From assembly GCA_026982315.1 (NCBI GenBank), contig JALSHI010000056.1:1-49979 (forward strand): a stretch of DNA of 49,979 bases, read 5' to 3'. Below, in pieces: positions 20,264 to 27,888 of this stretch. Below the pieces are notes generated by a model. That model worked only from the letters and a program-made list of their open reading frames with translations, was not told the origin of the DNA and made no database searches. Numbering within the stretch: the first letter of the stretch is position 1; every line of letters begins with the position of its first letter. Source of the DNA: Lysobacterales bacterium (lineage in GTDB: Bacteria > Pseudomonadota > Gammaproteobacteria > Xanthomonadales > Marinicellaceae). A program made the translations under genes and the position numbers.

Positions 20264-20578
20264 CTAGTTCAGCTCATCCAGGATTTCATCAGCCATTTCA
20301 CAAGCGGCCTGTAAATCCCCATCCTGCCCTTGGGCAGCCGAGGCGATTTCTCGAATTTTGCCGGCCACTTGCATCATCTTGTTAATGTCGCCGGATGTGG
20401 CCAGATTTTGCATTTTTTGCTGAATTTCCTCTGTTTTGGCCTTCAGATCATCTTCAGTACACGATGACGAGCAGGCCGAGAGAAAGGCCAGGGCGACAAA
20501 AGCCACGACAAACAGCCGGAACTGGCCGCCACTTGCTGGCCGAGGCGCATGGTATTCTGCTTTGTCATCTTTTTTCAT
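20264..20578 (-). CDS. Small predicted lipoprotein, function unknown
   Basis: This 104-residue protein has a hydrophobic stretch (about 22-35) ending in a canonical lipobox LSAC, so Cys36 would be lipidated after cleavage. The n-region before it is unusually long (21 residues) and hydrophilic. The mature part is short, helical and rich in Glu, Gln, Lys and Met, with KTEEIQQKMQNLA suggesting a coiled coil. It has no recognised family. AGGGGGATCC precedes the ATG. It lies 77 bases downstream of apbE on the same strand but has a candidate promoter of its own, so membership of the redox cluster is uncertain. Confidence 0.68.
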   Translation of the reverse strand: MKKDDKAEYHAPRPASGGQFRLFVVAFVALAFLSACSSSCTEDDLKAKTEEIQQKMQNLATSGDINKMMQVAGKIREIASAAQGQDGDLQAACEMADEILDELN

Positions 20579-20655: not shown

Positions 20656-21597
20656 TTATTTTGGCCATTGAATGTAGTGCCGGACCCCTTCTCTGGCCAA
20701 AAAGTCGCCCGCATATTTTCCTTGCAGCATGGCGCAGGTAGCCAGCAAACCAGCTTGCGTCGCCGTACCACCAACCACTGTCACCGTGGCCGGGCCATGA
20801 GGAACCGGCCAGCCGGTTTTAGGATTGAGCACATGCCCCAAACGCTGACCTTTTCCGTCCACAGCAAAGCGTTTGGTGTCACCACTGGTGGCCACCGCTC
20901 CTGTCACCAGGGCTAGGCCGCTCTGCTTTTCCTGCCCGACCAGCGTTTCCACACCAATGTGCCAGGGCTGGCCATCCTTTTTGCTTCTGGCAGCCAGCAC
21001 GTCCCCACCAAAATTCACCAGCACGCCACCCTTTGGCAATGCCTGCAGAAGCTGCATTCCCACCCGATCAACGGCATATTCCTTGCCAATGCCGCCAAAA
21101 TCCAGTTGCACACCTTCTTTCAGGCGCACCGCATCAGTGCGCAATTCAACCTTGTCCCATCCCACAGATTTTCGCGCCTCTGCCACCACGTGCCGGGGTG
21201 GTGGCGGCGACTGCCCATCAAAGCGCCATAAACACATCACCGCGCCAATGGTAATATCAATCAAGCCGTCAGTGGCCTGCCAGCACGTATCTGCTAGCTT
21301 CAGCAACGCCATGGTTTCCTCATCCACCGGTTGCCAGCCGGTGGCGCGGTTGATGCGGCCAATCACGCTCTCTGGCAAAAACCGGCTGAATTTCTCTTCA
21401 ATTCGCCAAGCCTCATTGGCCGCCTGCTCAACCAAGACATGCGCCTGATTTTCATCAGCACATTCCACACACACTTCACACGGACTTTTCATGGCCTCAA
21501 AAGTCCCCAGCCACAAGCCGGGACGACGTTGACGAACCACTGGTGGCGAGCGATTAATCATCCTACCACTTGGTTCGGTATCCAATGGTAATGGCAT
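20656..21597 (-). CDS. apbE: ApbE-family FAD:protein FMN transferase
   Basis: ApbE enzymes use FAD to attach FMN covalently through a phosphoester bond to Ser or Thr in target proteins. This 313-residue protein shows the family motifs ATDGLIDITIGAV (about 109-121), QLDFGGIGKEYAVDR (about 169-183), VNFGGDVLA (about 195-203), ATSGDTKRF (about 239-247) and HVLNPKTGWPV (about 257-267). No signal peptide or lipobox is visible, although many ApbE proteins are periplasmic. An alternative start at 21561 would begin one base after the DUF3570 stop. The longer start overlaps that gene by 35 bases and has GGTGA upstream. It is the last gene of the cluster, and its likely substrate is the DUF3570 product upstream. 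Confidence 0.9.
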   Translation of the reverse strand: MPLPLDTEPSGRMINRSPPVVRQRRPGLWLGTFEAMKSPCEVCVECADENQAHVLVEQAANEAWRIEEKFSRFLPESVIGRINRATGWQPVDEETMALLKLADTCWQATDGLIDITIGAVMCLWRFDGQSPPPPRHVVAEARKSVGWDKVELRTDAVRLKEGVQLDFGGIGKEYAVDRVGMQLLQALPKGGVLVNFGGDVLAARSKKDGQPWHIGVETLVGQEKQSGLALVTGAVATSGDTKRFAVDGKGQRLGHVLNPKTGWPVPHGPATVTVVGGTATQAGLLATCAMLQGKYAGDFLAREGVRHYIQWPK

Positions 21598-22861
21598 AAA
21601 AGGTCACCGATGGCGGCCCCTCGGCAATCCACTCGCTGTTCAGTGTCAATCCATCCCATGAATCCGGATTTTGTTTAACTTGCTCCAGATTCAAGGAGAT
21701 ACGTCGATCATCCGGCAAGTGATAAATGATTTTCATTCCCGCAGTGGCAGTAGTCAGTCCCCCCAGACGATAGTCCGATGAGGCATAAGTCGGCAAATCA
21801 TCCGATGCGGCCAAATACGGCACATAGAAATCCGCAGCGCTCTGCCGGCTATACCGCAAATGTGGCCTCAATTGCCACTTGTCACCAGCACGCAGATAAA
21901 ACTCCATATCGCCGGTGTGGCTGGCAATACCCCAGTCATCACGGAAATACCGGTAAGACAGATGCAGTGAATGCTCTCCCAGGGCGGTCACCATTTTGCC
22001 AGCCAGCGTTTGCCTGACTCTTTTATCCGGGCGCTTCTCCCATAAATAGTCCTCTGCCCGCCCATTGGTGTCCAGCAGCGCCACAACTTTATACGGGTCA
22101 CTCAGGTAGCCATTAGAAAGACTCAAACCATAGTTTGCGCTGAGAACGGTATATTGATTCAATACATGAGAAATACCAATCAAGCCTTCCAGAGTGAGTT
22201 TCTTCTCCCCTTCAAGGAAGTCATCATCGTCTTCATACCCATCTTCATCTTCATCGTCGTCATCATCCTTTAGAGTAAAGCGGCCGGAAGGGGCTGTCAC
22301 TGTATCAAAAATCGAACCGAATTCAGGCCGCAAGCCACCTCGAGGGCTAATAACATCGAAACTCAACCCCAAAGAACCTGATACAGTGGTCTGCTTGTCA
22401 GCCGAGTCTTTAGCCACCAATAAACTGCTGCCCAGAGAGAGATAATCTCTCTCCACAGAGAAGTTGGCACCCATTTCATACCGGCTGGCACCATGATCAA
22501 AAGGCTTTCCGCGGACAACACCCATGGCCAGACGCTGATCCTCAAAACCATTATCCAGCGGCGTTTCCCCGGCAGCTACCACAAACCCGGGGAATTCCTG
22601 AGAAACGGTCAAGGCCGGCGCGCCATTGGGAGAAGCGCCAGTCAGGGCGTCAAAAACCACCGTATAACGAAAAAAGTCATTCGTATCGTACTCCTTAGTA
22701 GCGATAACCACCGGTTCCACCACTGAAACACGGTCCTGCCCTTCACTGTCCGTTTCCGAATACAGCAGCATACCGCTGTCTACCAGCCAGTCATCTGCAT
22801 GCCCCTGAGTTGACACCAGCAGACTGGCCACAGCCAACCCCAGTTTTTTATTTAATTGCAT
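21563..22861 (-). CDS. DUF3570 outer-membrane barrel-like protein with possible flavinylation motif
   Basis: This 432-residue protein has a signal peptide (about residues 1-22) and alternating hydrophobic/polar strands with an aromatic C-terminus, YAITIGYRTKW, as in outer-membrane beta-barrels. It fits DUF3570, of unknown function. Residues 71-77 (22631-22651) read DALTGAS, which matches the D-x-x-S/T-x-x-S/T pattern used by ApbE enzymes. Ser77 would be the acceptor. A second oddity is an acidic run at 199-214 (22220-22267, nearly all Asp/Glu), probably an exposed loop. I start at ATG 22859-22861, because the upstream candidate is TTG and GGGGGAGG precedes this ATG. It overlaps the DUF4266 gene by 10 bases. 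Confidence 0.83.
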   Translation of the reverse strand: MQLNKKLGLAVASLLVSTQGHADDWLVDSGMLLYSETDSEGQDRVSVVEPVVIATKEYDTNDFFRYTVVFDALTGASPNGAPALTVSQEFPGFVVAAGETPLDNGFEDQRLAMGVVRGKPFDHGASRYEMGANFSVERDYLSLGSSLLVAKDSADKQTTVSGSLGLSFDVISPRGGLRPEFGSIFDTVTAPSGRFTLKDDDDDEDEDGYEDDDDFLEGEKKLTLEGLIGISHVLNQYTVLSANYGLSLSNGYLSDPYKVVALLDTNGRAEDYLWEKRPDKRVRQTLAGKMVTALGEHSLHLSYRYFRDDWGIASHTGDMEFYLRAGDKWQLRPHLRYSRQSAADFYVPYLAASDDLPTYASSDYRLGGLTTATAGMKIIYHLPDDRRISLNLEQVKQNPDSWDGLTLNSEWIAEGPPSVTFYAITIGYRTKW

Positions 22862-23085
22862 CCGCAACCTCCCCCGCCAACACCATAACCGCCTGAAGCG
22901 GCCTCTTTACTGAAGTACATGTGTTCGTCCAGATATCCTTGGACTGGATCTGGTTCCATTTGCATATCCGCACGGGCCAGTTGTTTCCGTTCCCATGGCT
23001 TAACCCGTTGCGGTTTAAGTTGCGCACAAGACGCACTGAGCGCTACTGCCATCAATATCAATAGCCATCGACTTCGCTTTTCCAT
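22852..23085 (-). CDS. DUF4266 small lipoprotein with Gly-rich CGCN tail
   Basis: This 77-residue protein has a signal sequence with LSASC as a slightly non-canonical lipobox, with Cys20 as the likely lipid site. The mature part contains KPWERKQLARADMQM (about 29-43) and DEHMYFSKEAASGG (about 53-66), characteristic of DUF4266. It ends in a Gly-rich stretch with Cys74, Cys76 and terminal Asn77. The CGCN end looks like a metal, thiol or modification site, but no function is known to me. AGGAGGG lies seven bases before the ATG. It precedes the DUF3570 gene with overlap and follows a TlpA-like gene by 68 bases. DUF4266, DUF3570 and ApbE commonly co-occur in proteobacteria, which is from memory. 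Confidence 0.85.
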   Translation of the reverse strand: MEKRSRWLLILMAVALSASCAQLKPQRVKPWERKQLARADMQMEPDPVQGYLDEHMYFSKEAASGGYGVGGGGCGCN

Positions 23086-23153
23086 CGAAAACCCTCCTGT
23101 AAGTTAAAAATGTTATCAATGTGAAATAGTAAATAAATAACACAAGCCAGGAC

Positions 23154-23669
23154 TTAATGCAGCGCCTGTTGAATGCGCCCCTCCAGTTCCTGGGCATCTT
23201 TTTTCCGAAACCCGGTGTGATGCATCACAATCTGTCCCTTGCGATTAATCAGAATGCCTGTTGGCATGCCTTTGACATTAAAGGCTGCTGCTGTGCGACC
23301 CTCTGGATCATGGAAAGTGGCAAAAGTGACTGGTCGCGACTCAAGAAACCGCAAGGCGTCTTGTTTGTCTTCATCAACACTCACAGCCAAAACCACAAAA
23401 CCCTGCTTTCCATAACGGGATTGCATGGTATCCAGCCAAGGAAACTCATATCGGCACGGCCCGCACCAGCTGGCCCAAAAGTCCAGCCAGATGGTTTTTT
23501 CCCTGTAGTCCGCCAGGATATGGCGTTGTCCATCCAACCCTGTCAAGGGCTGTTGCCACTGTTGCTGTGTGATAACAGAAAAATCTTTGGCCAACACATG
23601 AAATGGCGCAACCAGACAAACAAACCCAAACCAAAAAACCAGTTTTATTTTTTTCACTTCTTTCCCCAC
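23154..23669 (-). CDS. TlpA-like thioredoxin-fold protein
   Basis: This 171-residue protein has a signal sequence (about 1-27) and a thioredoxin fold with WCGPC, placing redox Cys69 and Cys72 in the periplasm. Other features are FWASWCGPC, the cis-Pro segment GMPTGILINRKG and AVSVDEDKQDA, typical of the TlpA/ResA group that reduces or oxidises periplasmic thiols. The open frame continues to a TTG at 23750, but I start at GTG 23667-23669 with AGGA eight bases upstream; a second GTG at 23655-23657 is also possible. It heads the leftward DUF4266-DUF3570-apbE cluster, which suggests it handles the Cys pair of the DUF4266 tail. That role is inference. Confidence 0.88.
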   Translation of the reverse strand: MGKEVKKIKLVFWFGFVCLVAPFHVLAKDFSVITQQQWQQPLTGLDGQRHILADYREKTIWLDFWASWCGPCRYEFPWLDTMQSRYGKQGFVVLAVSVDEDKQDALRFLESRPVTFATFHDPEGRTAAAFNVKGMPTGILINRKGQIVMHHTGFRKKDAQELEGRIQQALH

Positions 23670-23989: not shown

Positions 23990-25414
23990 ATGCTGACTAT
24001 CAGACATAACAGGTATTCCATGAGAACACTTTTTCCAGCATTGCTATTGGCACTCACCACTATTGTTCTGCCCGTTCTGGCGAATGATGGCGACATCCTG
24101 GAACATATTCGCCAACACGGACAAAATAGCCGCCTGGCCTATGAGCTCGTCGAATCCCTCACCACCGAGGTGGGACCACGGCTGGGTGGCGGCGAGAACG
24201 ACGCCCGCGCCAGAGAATGGGCGCAAGCCATGCTCAAAAAACTGGGGTTTGATGAGGTTCACACCGAGCCGGTCACTTTCCCGCGCTGGCGGCGAGATGT
24301 GGAGTCCGCCACGGTGGTGACCCCTTACCGGCATACGCTGGCGGTGACTGCTCTGGGCGGCTCCGGCCCGACGCCAACAGGAGGCATCACTGCGGAAGTC
24401 ATTGCTTTTGATTCCCTGCAAGCACTTCGGCAAGCCAGCAAAAAGGACATTCAGGGCAAAATTGTTTTCGTCAATCAAGCCATGCCCCGTCACAAAGATG
24501 GCCATGGTTACGGGCAAACCGTTGGTGCCCGCTACATGAGCAGCCAGATTGTCGCCGAAAAAGGGGGCAAGGCAGTGCTAATTCGTTCCATTGGCACGGA
24601 TAACAATCGGCTGCCCCATACCGGCATCATGAAAGTCTCCGCCGACAAGCCCGGCGTCCCGGCCGCCGCCGTATCCATACCCGATGCCCAGCTCTTGCAC
24701 AATCTGCTCGCCCGCGGCAAACCTGTCAATGTGCACCTGAAACTGGGTTCTCATTGGGATGGCGAATACACCTCGGCCAATGTGCTGGGTGACCTGCGCG
24801 GCGAGGAAAAGCCGGATGAATACGTATTGCTGGCCTGTCACCTGGATTCCTGGGACTTGGGCACCGGTGCCATTGATGACGGCGCCGGCTGTGCCATCAT
24901 GATGGCCGCCGTGGCCCATTTGAAGGCGCTTGATCTCAAACCCAAACGCAGCATCCGGGTGCTGCTTGCAGCCAATGAAGAGTATGGCCTGGCCGGTGCC
25001 AAGGCCTATGCCAAGGCTCACGCGGCAGAGGCTCGAAAGCACGTTATCGGCGGCGAATCCGACTTTGGCGCCGGGCGCATTTATCGCTTTGATTCCCATG
25101 TTCAAAAACAGGCTTTTGGCGTCATGGATGAAATAGCCCGGGCCATTGCGCCACTGGGCATTACCCGGGGGCACAACCAGGCAAAAGGCGGCGCCGACGT
25201 TTCCAGAATGAAAGCCTTGGGCATGCCGGTGGTGGATATGAAACAAGATGGCACAAACTATTTCGATTATCACCACACCGCCAATGACACCCTGGACAAG
25301 ATTGACCCTGAGGCCATGGCTCAGAATGCCACCGCCTGGGCACTGTTTGCCTGGTTGGCGGCCAACCATGAAGGCGACTTTGGCTGGTTTGAAAGCACTC
25401 AACACGACCCATGA
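23990..25414 (+). CDS. Secreted M28-family metallopeptidase (carboxypeptidase Q-like)
   Basis: This 474-residue protein has a signal peptide and an M28-type di-zinc peptidase domain. The metal-binding set includes His284 in ACHLDSWD, bridging Asp296 in AIDDGAG, Glu pair in LAANEEYG, Asp in GESDFG and a late His in YFDYHHTAN. A PA-domain-like insert fills about residues 140-260. The arrangement resembles plasma glutamate carboxypeptidase / carboxypeptidase Q. It would release amino acids from peptides in the periplasm or outside. ATG 24020 is an alternative start that gives a shorter n-region. Its stop overlaps the next start codon as ATGA (25411-25414), so the kinase gene is translationally coupled. 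Confidence 0.88.
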   Translation: MLTIRHNRYSMRTLFPALLLALTTIVLPVLANDGDILEHIRQHGQNSRLAYELVESLTTEVGPRLGGGENDARAREWAQAMLKKLGFDEVHTEPVTFPRWRRDVESATVVTPYRHTLAVTALGGSGPTPTGGITAEVIAFDSLQALRQASKKDIQGKIVFVNQAMPRHKDGHGYGQTVGARYMSSQIVAEKGGKAVLIRSIGTDNNRLPHTGIMKVSADKPGVPAAAVSIPDAQLLHNLLARGKPVNVHLKLGSHWDGEYTSANVLGDLRGEEKPDEYVLLACHLDSWDLGTGAIDDGAGCAIMMAAVAHLKALDLKPKRSIRVLLAANEEYGLAGAKAYAKAHAAEARKHVIGGESDFGAGRIYRFDSHVQKQAFGVMDEIARAIAPLGITRGHNQAKGGADVSRMKALGMPVVDMKQDGTNYFDYHHTANDTLDKIDPEAMAQNATAWALFAWLAANHEGDFGWFESTQHDP

Positions 25415-27888
25415 CCCGCACCCGTAAACAAGGCGCACCAGAAAATGCCAACCTTTCAGGAGAGGCGGGACGCAAAACCGTGCCCATCAAAAATGTACGC
25501 ATTGCAGGTTACACCCTTTTGCGTGAAATCGGCCGGGGCGGCATGTCCATTGTTTATCTGGCCGAGCAGGACTCCCTGAAGCGCGAAGTCGCCATCAAGG
25601 TTTTGAAAAAAAACGTGGCTAATGACCCGGAAGTGGCCAACCGCTTTCTGCACGAGGCCAAAATCATCGCCAAACTGGACCATCCCAATATCGTCAGCAT
25701 TTTCGAAGTGGGGCACACGGCCGATGGCGACCCCTATTACAGCATGCCCTATTTGCGGTTTGGAGACTTGTCCCAGGCAGAATTCAAGTTTGACAAAGAC
25801 ATCAAACACCTCATGTACGGCGTCTGCGAGGGACTGGCTTATTCCCATGAGCACGATGTCATTCATCGCGACCTGAAACCGGCCAATATTCTCTTTGATC
25901 ACTTCGGCAATGCCCAAGTGGCTGATTTTGGCATTGCCCTGTCACGCAACAGCAAACGCTGGACCAAGCAGGAACACATTATCGGCAGCGCCTGCTACAT
26001 GAGCCCTGAACAGGCGTTATCGAAACCCGTGACCCAGGCATCTGACCTCTATTCCCTGGGCACAATACTCTACGAACAGCTCACCGGCTCACCACCCTTT
26101 GAAAAAGACGATGACCTGTCCACGCTGGTGGCGCACATCAATGAACCCATTCCCCGCCTGCCACCGGAAAAAGCCCACTGGCAAGGGATCATTGACAAGG
26201 CATTGGCCAAACACCCTGAAGATCGCTTTTTCAATGCCCTGGAGTTCAAAAACGCCGTCCAGCAAGTCTCTCCCGGCTATGCCCGGGCGTTTTCTCAGGC
26301 TTTCTCAAGACACCCCAAAGGCGCCATAGCGGCTATCCTGACTACCGCCGCGGCCTTGCTCTGGTTTCTCTGGCCTTTTGATTATCACGGCCAATCGGCA
26401 AACACCACCGTACCGGCTGTTTCTACACCCCCGGCCACGCTCACGCAACACGAAGACAACGGCGCCGAAATACAACCAAGAACTGCCACAAAACCACCTG
26501 AACTCGATCAGCTGGAACTGTCTGAGTCCACTCTGGATAAAACCACCTTGCCAGAAACCGCCAAAGAGACCAGCAGCGACACGCTACCTGCCCCGGAAAC
26601 AACATCCACCGAAGAAAACACAGCAAAGCCACCAACGGCTCGTGACATTCTCTCTGCCCAGGGACAAGGCGCCGAAGGATTAACCCCGGCTCAAGCCATC
26701 ACTCTCATTTCCGCCGGTTTCCAAAAAATCAAGGAAAAACGCCTGACCCGACCGGCAGGCAACAATGCCCTGGCCTATTTTACCGAGGTACTTCGCAATT
26801 ATCCCAACAACAAACGCGCAACCCAGGGCGTACAACTGATATTCAATTACTTCCTTGAACAAATACGACAGGCCCTGCAAGCCGGAAACCTTACTGAAGC
26901 CCGCCGATATGCCGAAAAGCTTCAGGCGCTCTACAACCAAACCGGCCTGCATAGTAGTTCAAAAACCCTCGCCGCTGAAATCATCCACAGCGCCGAACAG
27001 CGCATGAATACCTTGCGTAAAACCCATCAGGCTGATGCCGCCGAGACCCTTGCGGCGCTAGTGGCCCTGGCTTTGCCCGACCAGCATGAAGCACTGGCGG
27101 CATTGCAGGCAAGCGCTGCGGCCATTCCCCGCCCTGGCGATCACTTGCCCGACAGTCAGGGACTGGAAACCATTTTTGTGTCTGCCGATCCGGCGCGCCA
27201 TGTTGCCGCTTTTGGCCTCATGCCCCATGAAGTCACCGTCGCCGAATATGCCCGGTTTGCCAAAGCCACGGGGCGGAAACCGGCCCGTTGCCAACACAAG
27301 GCGGTCTTCAAGCCATTCGCCAGCAAAACCTGGCGTAAACCACCCTTCAAGCAAACCCCGCAGCATGCGGTGATTTGTGTTTCCTGGGCTGATGCCAACG
27401 CGTTCGCCAAGTGGATTAGCGATCAATCGGGCAACACATACCGTTTACCCACTGAAAAACAGTGGCGATCACTGGCCCGCTGGAAAACCGCTGGCAGCAC
27501 ACCCTGTCAAAAAGGCAATGTGGCCGGGCAGGAAACCAAAGGCCTGCATATCAACAGCCAACCCGAAAAACAACCATGGAAGTGCCGCGATCAATTTGTG
27601 TTTACCGCGCCGGTGACCGGATTTTCTCACAACTCCCTGGGAATCAGCGATATTTGGGGCAACAGCGCCGAGTGGCTGGCCGGTTGCAGCCAAAAAAAAG
27701 CGCCAAACACCAAAAACTGGCTAAAAAAAATCTCCAGTCCCAAAGGCGACAGATGCCAACGAATCTATGCTGGCAATTCCTGGCTGGATGGCACCGGCAT
27801 CGATGCCATGAGCTTCCGTTCCAGCTCCGAGCAAAAAGCCTATACCCATGTGGGCTTTCGCCTGGTGCGTGATTTAAACCCGGACTGA
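25411..27888 (+). CDS. Ser/Thr protein kinase with C-terminal FGE-sulfatase-like domain
   Basis: This 825-residue protein has an N-terminal Hanks-type kinase (about 33-285). It shows the Gly loop IGRGGMSIVY, Lys63 in VAIK, HRDLKPAN with Asp154 and DFG at 172-174, so it should be active. One transmembrane segment (about 305-323) places a Pro/Thr-rich linker (about 330-410), a helical region and a C-terminal FGE-sulfatase-like domain (about 590-822) outside the cytoplasm. That domain keeps PHEVTVAEYARF, YRLPTEKQW, GNSAEWLAG and VGFRLVRD. The region where true FGE has its copper-binding Cys pair reads FRSSSEQ, so oxidase activity is unlikely and ligand sensing is more plausible. It overlaps the upstream peptidase by 4 bases. 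Confidence 0.9.
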   Translation: MTRTRKQGAPENANLSGEAGRKTVPIKNVRIAGYTLLREIGRGGMSIVYLAEQDSLKREVAIKVLKKNVANDPEVANRFLHEAKIIAKLDHPNIVSIFEVGHTADGDPYYSMPYLRFGDLSQAEFKFDKDIKHLMYGVCEGLAYSHEHDVIHRDLKPANILFDHFGNAQVADFGIALSRNSKRWTKQEHIIGSACYMSPEQALSKPVTQASDLYSLGTILYEQLTGSPPFEKDDDLSTLVAHINEPIPRLPPEKAHWQGIIDKALAKHPEDRFFNALEFKNAVQQVSPGYARAFSQAFSRHPKGAIAAILTTAAALLWFLWPFDYHGQSANTTVPAVSTPPATLTQHEDNGAEIQPRTATKPPELDQLELSESTLDKTTLPETAKETSSDTLPAPETTSTEENTAKPPTARDILSAQGQGAEGLTPAQAITLISAGFQKIKEKRLTRPAGNNALAYFTEVLRNYPNNKRATQGVQLIFNYFLEQIRQALQAGNLTEARRYAEKLQALYNQTGLHSSSKTLAAEIIHSAEQRMNTLRKTHQADAAETLAALVALALPDQHEALAALQASAAAIPRPGDHLPDSQGLETIFVSADPARHVAAFGLMPHEVTVAEYARFAKATGRKPARCQHKAVFKPFASKTWRKPPFKQTPQHAVICVSWADANAFAKWISDQSGNTYRLPTEKQWRSLARWKTAGSTPCQKGNVAGQETKGLHINSQPEKQPWKCRDQFVFTAPVTGFSHNSLGISDIWGNSAEWLAGCSQKKAPNTKNWLKKISSPKGDRCQRIYAGNSWLDGTGIDAMSFRSSSEQKAYTHVGFRLVRDLNPD

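Follow-up and report, generated by a model that had tools for sequence, protein, structure and literature searches.

A DUF3570-type flavinylation module in a Lysobacterales genome, with a predicted outer-membrane barrel and a dedicated ApbE without a signal peptide

We analysed a 49,979-nt stretch of a Lysobacterales bacterium of the Marinicellaceae (GenBank assembly GCA_026982315.1, contig JALSHI010000056.1, positions 1 to 49,979; hereafter the window), in which four adjacent genes encode a TlpA-like protein, DUF4266, DUF3570 and ApbE. The assembly of the source genome, a gammaproteobacterium, comprises 70 contigs and 2.24 Mb. As the first-pass annotation of this DNA had read them, the four genes form one leftward run in that transcription order, and all four products have strong Pfam matches: Redoxin/AhpC-TSA for the TlpA-like protein (E 5.7e-20, cut-offs exceeded, CGPC present), PF14086 for DUF4266 (E 8.9e-23, all 50 positions covered), PF12094 for DUF3570 (E 2.5e-91, 307 bits against a cut-off of 25) and PF02424 for a full-length ApbE (E 1.9e-62, 211.6 bits against a cut-off of 25.6). 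The reported 10-base overlap of DUF3570 with DUF4266 is exact (ATG at 22861, stop at 22852), and apbE does abut or overlap DUF3570, since its ATG at 21561 lies one base past the DUF3570 stop while an alternative in-frame ATG at 21597 would give a 35-base overlap. Tight packing, claimed for the whole run, holds for these three genes but not for the TlpA-like gene, whose stop is 68 bases from the DUF4266 start. The best start of that gene is a GTG at 23657, preceded by GGGGAAAG, with 23669 as the other possible start; its product has a Sec signal peptide ending in HVLA, read by eye, and is given no closer name because the NCBIfam ResA/TlpA models match it only below their cut-offs. DUF4266 has a lipobox, SASC, and was therefore taken to be a lipoprotein; its C-terminus reads GGGGCGCN. 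Promoter and terminator scans of the locus gave no signal exceeding the shuffled background. The features are collected in Table 1.

Table 1. Features of the four-gene cluster and of the open reading frame (ORF) behind it, in window coordinates (FAD, flavin adenine dinucleotide; FMN, flavin mononucleotide)
Feature	Coordinates	Strand	Basis
TlpA/ResA-like periplasmic thioredoxin-fold protein, CGPC, Sec signal peptide	23154..23657	-	Pfam match; signal by eye
DUF4266 small lipoprotein, lipobox SASC	22852..23085	-	PF14086
DUF4266 C-terminal arm KEAASGGYGVGGGGCGCN, fixed-length Gly-rich tail ending Cys-Gly-Cys-Asn	22855..22908	-	Sequence comparison
DUF3570 outer-membrane beta barrel (predicted), 16 predicted strands, signal peptide, aromatic C-terminus	21563..22861	-	PF12094 and predicted model
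Flavinylation motif TGAS, residues 74-77, acceptor Ser77, end of strand 3 and start of extracellular loop L2	22631..22642	-	Motif function from Meheust 2021 (PMC8238504, available part)
Place where relatives have the second flavinylation motif, degenerate (AGET) in the window	22562..22573	-	Alignment
Asp/Glu-rich insertion in predicted extracellular loop L4, genus-only among 74 aligned proteins	22220..22267	-	Alignment and model
ApbE (FAD:protein FMN transferase), dedicated DUF3570 clade, without signal peptide	20656..21561	-	PF02424 and tree
Small lipoprotein-like ORF behind apbE, possible fifth gene	20264..20578	-	Without family match; kept only in the genus

The module to which these genes belong is real, conserved and already published. 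In its available part, Meheust 2021 (eLife, PMC8238504) counts 316 clusters of the four families and 227 clusters with DsbD, shows in Chlorobium luteolum that ApbE flavinylates DUF3570 at [S/T]GA[S/T] motifs, and notes that the CXC tail of DUF4266 is possibly redox-cycling. The window shares all four families with these clusters, DsbD-type and DsbD-less alike, and differs from them in having one flavin site rather than two, an acidic loop and no DsbD nearby; it is a one-site, acidic-loop member. The first-pass annotation was thus right to propose a cell-envelope redox module, which was not new, and went too far in knowing of no defined function, since the module and its ApbE substrate, the latter by experiment, had already been shown in 2021. 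Its interpretation also missed that the ApbE has no signal, that the flavin site is predicted to face outward and that only one of the two reported sites is kept in the window barrel. What is added here to the published module is a sharper proposed mechanism, with an outward flavin, cytosolic flavinylation and a Cys-Gly-Cys (CGC) arm of fixed length. As an overall explanation of the locus, known here from sequences and predicted models, such a DUF3570-type flavinylation module has in our estimate about an even chance of being correct.

The neighbourhood comparison that had been proposed was run, and the expected co-occurrence of the families was borne out. A scan seeded on the DUF3570 peptide G[YF]LSDPYK, from which the best 80 of 418 relatives were kept, together with 10 loci from a genome search and the window, gave 91 loci, or 88 distinct ones after duplicates were removed before counting (L001 is the window, L002 equals L012 and L003 equals L011). 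DUF4266 was present in 87 of the 88, a TlpA-like ORF in 79, ApbE in 56 and all four in 53; many of these loci end at contig edges, and the lone one without DUF4266 (L064) is cut off at a contig end. Two cultured bacteria with an intact cluster, Undibacterium pigrum DSM 19792 and Zhongshania antarctica DSM 25701, are represented among the loci. When each family was searched separately in 276 genomes of the class, DUF3570 was found in 73, with DUF4266 in 69 of them and alone in four (G105, G142, G209 and G262), and DUF4266 never occurred without DUF3570, so that the possibility that the families seldom co-occur falls away. Within the order the module is patchy: it is present in 3/3 genomes of the genus (that of the window included), 0/30 of the rest of the family and 7/28 of other families.

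The window DUF3570 is predicted to be an outer-membrane beta barrel, its modelled strands being accompanied by a signal peptide and an aromatic C-terminus. The AlphaFold2 (AF2) model (predicted local distance difference test, pLDDT, 87.4; predicted template-modelling score, pTM, 0.85) has 16 strands, with all seven turns on one side only 2-5 residues long and five of the eight opposite loops 19-47 residues long (L2 30, L4 47, L5 28, L7 28 and L8 19 residues). The long loops are probably extracellular, because they start after strand 1 and both termini would be periplasmic, as in known barrels. Among solved structures, outer-membrane barrels matched best, led by BamA (Z 22.4, root-mean-square deviation (rmsd) 3.7 over 285 residues) and the polysaccharide exporter 4y25 (Z 20.6) and followed by CymA (Z 18.8) and OmpG (Z 17.9). 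No solved sequence relative of DUF3570 was found, the best hit being an unrelated protein at E 0.38. Model A3 was built from the 78 usable DUF3570 sequences less 5 near repeats, with proteins shorter than 330 amino acids left unused; model A4 used 48 of the 78.

The [S/T]GA[S/T] motif of flavinylated DUF3570 occurs once in the window protein, as TGAS at residues 74-77, which in the model is the point where strand 3 enters loop L2. By its membership in the known module, as judged from sequence, this DUF3570 would, like that of Chlorobium, be a carrier of FMN attached by the neighbouring ApbE. The acceptor Ser/Thr of this first site was present in 74/74 aligned DUF3570 proteins and the full [ST]G[AS][ST] in 68/74; loop L2 holds two motifs in 27 of the 74, one in 41 and none by the strict pattern in 6. 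The window genus has the single motif, its second place reading AGET (in the window), AGKT or AGQT. A second model, of the two-motif DUF3570 of locus L078, again had 16 strands, with both motifs in loop L2. We also considered whether motif loss goes with ApbE loss, as in Crenothrix (L054, G089), where the motif reads AGAS and no dedicated-clade ApbE is found, but Opitutaceae with AGAT or VGAT retain ApbE, and for this reason no such coupling is claimed.

On the predicted models and the usual barrel topology, from which the sides were assigned, the outer side of DUF3570 (extracellular loops plus outer strand halves) holds 46 of the 53 positions that are at least 80% conserved, against 204 of 334 positions overall. 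The seed peptide of the scan lies in loop L5 and biases conservation there; with residues 250-259 removed, 38 of 45 conserved positions were still on the outer side, a share matched in 11 of 100000 shuffles. The outer loops of porins are usually their variable part, and since they are the conserved part here, the simplest reading is an active site at the outward mouth. Together with the model, this suggests that the flavin sits on the outward face of the barrel. In the available part of Meheust 2021 (PMC8238504) the words 'barrel' and 'porin' occur 0 times, and the topology, the outward site and the missing ApbE signal are not discussed; likewise, the available part of a 2024 follow-up (PMC11334425) does not treat DUF3570. 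A literature search combining flavinylated, outer membrane protein and beta-barrel returned no report.

Where the flavin is attached can be approached through ApbE. A tree of 110 rows was built from the loci, the ApbEs of the window genome and those of 31 further DUF3570-bearing genomes, after exclusion of repeated sequences and of ORFs that lacked the profile start or had fewer than 200 aligned residues. Every row linked to DUF3570/DUF4266 fell into one clade of 75 rows (support 100/98), together with 10 unlinked rows from DUF3570 genomes; moreover, 15 of 16 genomes checked for having a DUF3570 locus without apbE carry an ApbE of this dedicated clade elsewhere. Signal peptides were scored by a crude hydrophobicity measure with a cut at 2.0, which was reached by 0/75 ApbEs in the clade versus 23/35 outside it, most of the 23 with a lipobox. 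The highest clade score, 1.94, is that of L008, whose candidate start is placed upstream within a long open frame. The window ApbE lacks the export signal or lipoprotein anchor typical of most ApbEs, neither of which is required for membership in the family. Its genome has three ApbEs: one on contig 24 with the lipobox VFAGC, a near copy on contig 44 cut at the locus edge, and that of the cluster, which has no lipobox. The first two (C24:154-990, L092, and C44:12869-13717, L091) are near-identical, lie near a contig end and differ in that one has a lipoprotein signal; they represent either a duplication or a broken repeat.

As no signal peptide can be recognised in the DUF3570-linked clade, whereas the window genome also encodes an ApbE that is a lipoprotein, attachment of FMN probably takes place in the cytosol and precedes Sec export, a view that we hold with reasonable though not full confidence. 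This order of events would be sensible, as an inner-membrane ApbE could hardly reach an outer-face loop after assembly, and it fits the Chlorobium barrel, which was flavinylated although found mostly in the pellet and purified denatured (PMC8238504, available part). The alternative, that ApbE gets to the periplasm by a route invisible in sequence and flavinylates there as for NqrC and RnfG, has in its favour that most known ApbEs act in that compartment (PMC12052999, available part), yet no signal peptide results from any in-frame start further upstream, be it in the window or across the clade, and the denatured Chlorobium protein sits poorly with it. Signal-less cytosolic ApbEs are also known from the same source, for example that of Klebsiella pneumoniae, which serves fumarate reductase, and we regard a periplasmic reaction as unlikely. 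The Klebsiella enzyme resembles the window ApbE in having no signal peptide and differs in its substrate, a soluble cytosolic enzyme rather than an exported barrel.

The window DUF4266 has both the family match and a C-terminal CXC, formed by Cys74 and Cys76. In 88 of 91 distinct DUF4266 proteins the distance from a conserved Lys/Arg to the CXC was exactly 14 residues by pattern (89 of 91 counting L080, which the pattern missed), and 85 of the 91 end in CGCN and three in CGCY. The constant length of the Gly-rich stretch suggests an arm that docks and not a loose tether. For an FMN at the outer mouth, direct transfer from or to the periplasm would span too great a distance, and some bridge would hence be needed, for which the DUF4266 tail is the sole candidate in the cluster. 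The Cys-Gly-Cys tail is well placed for carrying electrons from TlpA to the flavin or back, and the chance that it acts as such a relay seems to us about even.

Taken as a mechanism, the proposal runs as follows. ApbE, without a signal peptide, would attach FMN to the unfolded DUF3570 precursor in the cytosol; after Sec export the protein would fold as a 16-stranded outer-membrane barrel with the covalent FMN on an outward-side loop. The DsbD encoded on another contig of the window genome would serve as electron source, the periplasmic TlpA-like thioredoxin would exchange electrons with the DUF4266 lipoprotein, and the fixed-length Gly-rich CGC arm of the latter would enter or pass under the barrel and exchange electrons with FMN. 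The flavin would then give electrons to a partner outside the cell or receive them from it; the most likely partner would be an acceptor, for example a metal ion. In its strongest form, a cytochrome-free conduit in which FMN is pre-attached at the outward mouth and the DUF4266 arm reaches up the barrel as a thiol wire from the periplasmic thioredoxin, the idea is tentative and rather doubtful. It shares with the Mtr-type porin-cytochrome conduits the notion that electrons cross by way of an outer-membrane barrel, but those use hemes where the module would use FMN and thiols, and although the Mtr complex 6r2q_B is among the structural matches of the DUF3570 model (Z 16.0, rmsd 8.4), a match at such a level is generic.

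As for direction, outward flow is favoured because a DsbD-like ORF occurs in 24 of the 88 loci (21 of these 24 without ApbE) and a full-length DsbD is encoded elsewhere in the window genome; there is no DsbD among the identified ORFs neighbouring the window cluster. We would give the outward direction roughly an even chance.

A different purpose, with the CGC tail serving chiefly to bind metal, TlpA keeping the tail reduced, and the flavin reducing surface Fe(III) or Cu(II) for uptake or detoxification, is not a likely reading, but several features touch on it. Genes for the VIT1 iron transporter lie in 25 such clusters (PMC8238504, available part), the window genus has the acidic L4 loop, and two DUF3570 proteins (L168 and L169) carry a fused C-terminal region rich in His and Met. 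However, neither VIT1 nor any other metal or iron transporter was among the recurrent neighbours that were domain-scanned, which were representatives only, and the acidic insertion is confined to the window genus and missing in the other 71 of 74 aligned DUF3570 proteins; the acidic loop and the fusions are hints of metal that prove nothing. The fusions themselves (L168:1982-4741 and L169:1866-4577) carry DUF3570 in one frame with a region rich in HMHM and MxM that has no Pfam or NCBIfam match and is possibly a metal-binding partner, and the DUF4266 tails of both loci end in CGCY.

Less probable still is the reverse flow, in which protein thiols would pass electrons through TlpA and CGC to FMN and on to oxygen or another outside oxidant, giving disulfide formation in the envelope as in Erv-type oxidases. 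In Erv2 the shuttle disulfide is a C-terminal CXC beside the flavin (PMC4019985, available part), and 64 of the 88 loci have no DsbD-like ORF within reach. Against this, the recurrent extra partner is DsbD, a reducing system, in the 24 loci found here as in the 227 clusters of PMC8238504 (available part). A separate thiol oxidase would also be odd where DsbA/DsbB exist. The likeness to Erv2-type oxidases is one of principle, a mobile C-terminal CXC arm between thiol protein and flavin; the proteins are unrelated, the module would have arm and flavin on separate chains with covalent FMN, and no family match to the Erv/ALR FAD-binding helical domain with CXXC was found in the four proteins, so that the analogy is one of mechanism only and the module is not a member of that class. 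That DUF3570 is an ordinary solute porin with a structural or regulatory flavin is very improbable, for although the fold is a common porin-size barrel, the outer loops are conserved and the linked thiol proteins would be left unexplained.

Several observations weigh against the flavinylation module with an outward flavin and a CGC arm as we have drawn it. Four of the 73 DUF3570 genomes have no DUF4266, and in the three of their loci that have a scored barrel (L171, L172 and L173) the gene neighbourhood differs and the retrieved stretch contains no match to ApbE, which suggests that part of the DUF3570 family does something else; the fourth match, L174, is weak. Two flavins cannot be essential, given that the second site is lost in the window genus. 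One of the 91 DUF4266 tails has no CXC (L027), one ORF continues past it (L031), and the contact between CGC arm and barrel is putative. With regard to the site of flavinylation, the signal scoring is crude, 12 of the 35 ApbEs outside the clade were likewise under the cut, and Meheust 2021 (PMC8238504, available part) mentions a 'signal peptide-truncated' cognate apbE; the missing signal peptide may thus not hold in Chlorobium, whose phylum lies outside our sample.

Other arrangements were seen around these families. In L171, L172 and L173 a divergent DUF3570 without a Pfam-confirmed DUF4266 lies beside genes for SH3 and small outer-membrane barrel proteins, and L172 also encodes a CxxCH protein with a lipobox. 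A DUF4266-DUF3570 fusion in L171, suspected from a 21.7-bit match to our own profile, was rejected as Pfam found no DUF4266 there. Six Methylococcales-type loci (L131, L133, L142, L146, L149 and L150) have a second, divergent DUF3570 adjoining a dedicated ApbE, while their first cluster has DsbD instead. DUF3570 and DUF4266 adjoin a DUF1501-type gene in L019, L020, L021 and L024, and a 534-amino-acid lipoprotein-like ORF without family match is present in L019, L020, L021, L023 and L024. In the two congeneric loci, L011 and L012, the cluster is likewise followed by a relative of the small ORF that lies behind apbE in the window. Outside the cluster, a plus-strand gene at 25411-27888 encodes a Ser/Thr kinase fused to an FGE-sulfatase domain, its start overlapping the end of a gene for an M28 peptidase.

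DUF3570 is among the few proteins shown to carry an ApbE-attached flavin and is modelled here as an outer-membrane barrel, in a module that is common in the class, as the presence of DUF3570 in more than a quarter of the genomes searched (73 of 276) indicates. If ApbE does act in the cytosol on this exported protein, cofactor attachment would precede Sec export, unlike the usual periplasmic flavinylation. If the flavin does face outward and is fed by thiols, bacteria would have a heme-free means of transferring electrons across the outer membrane.

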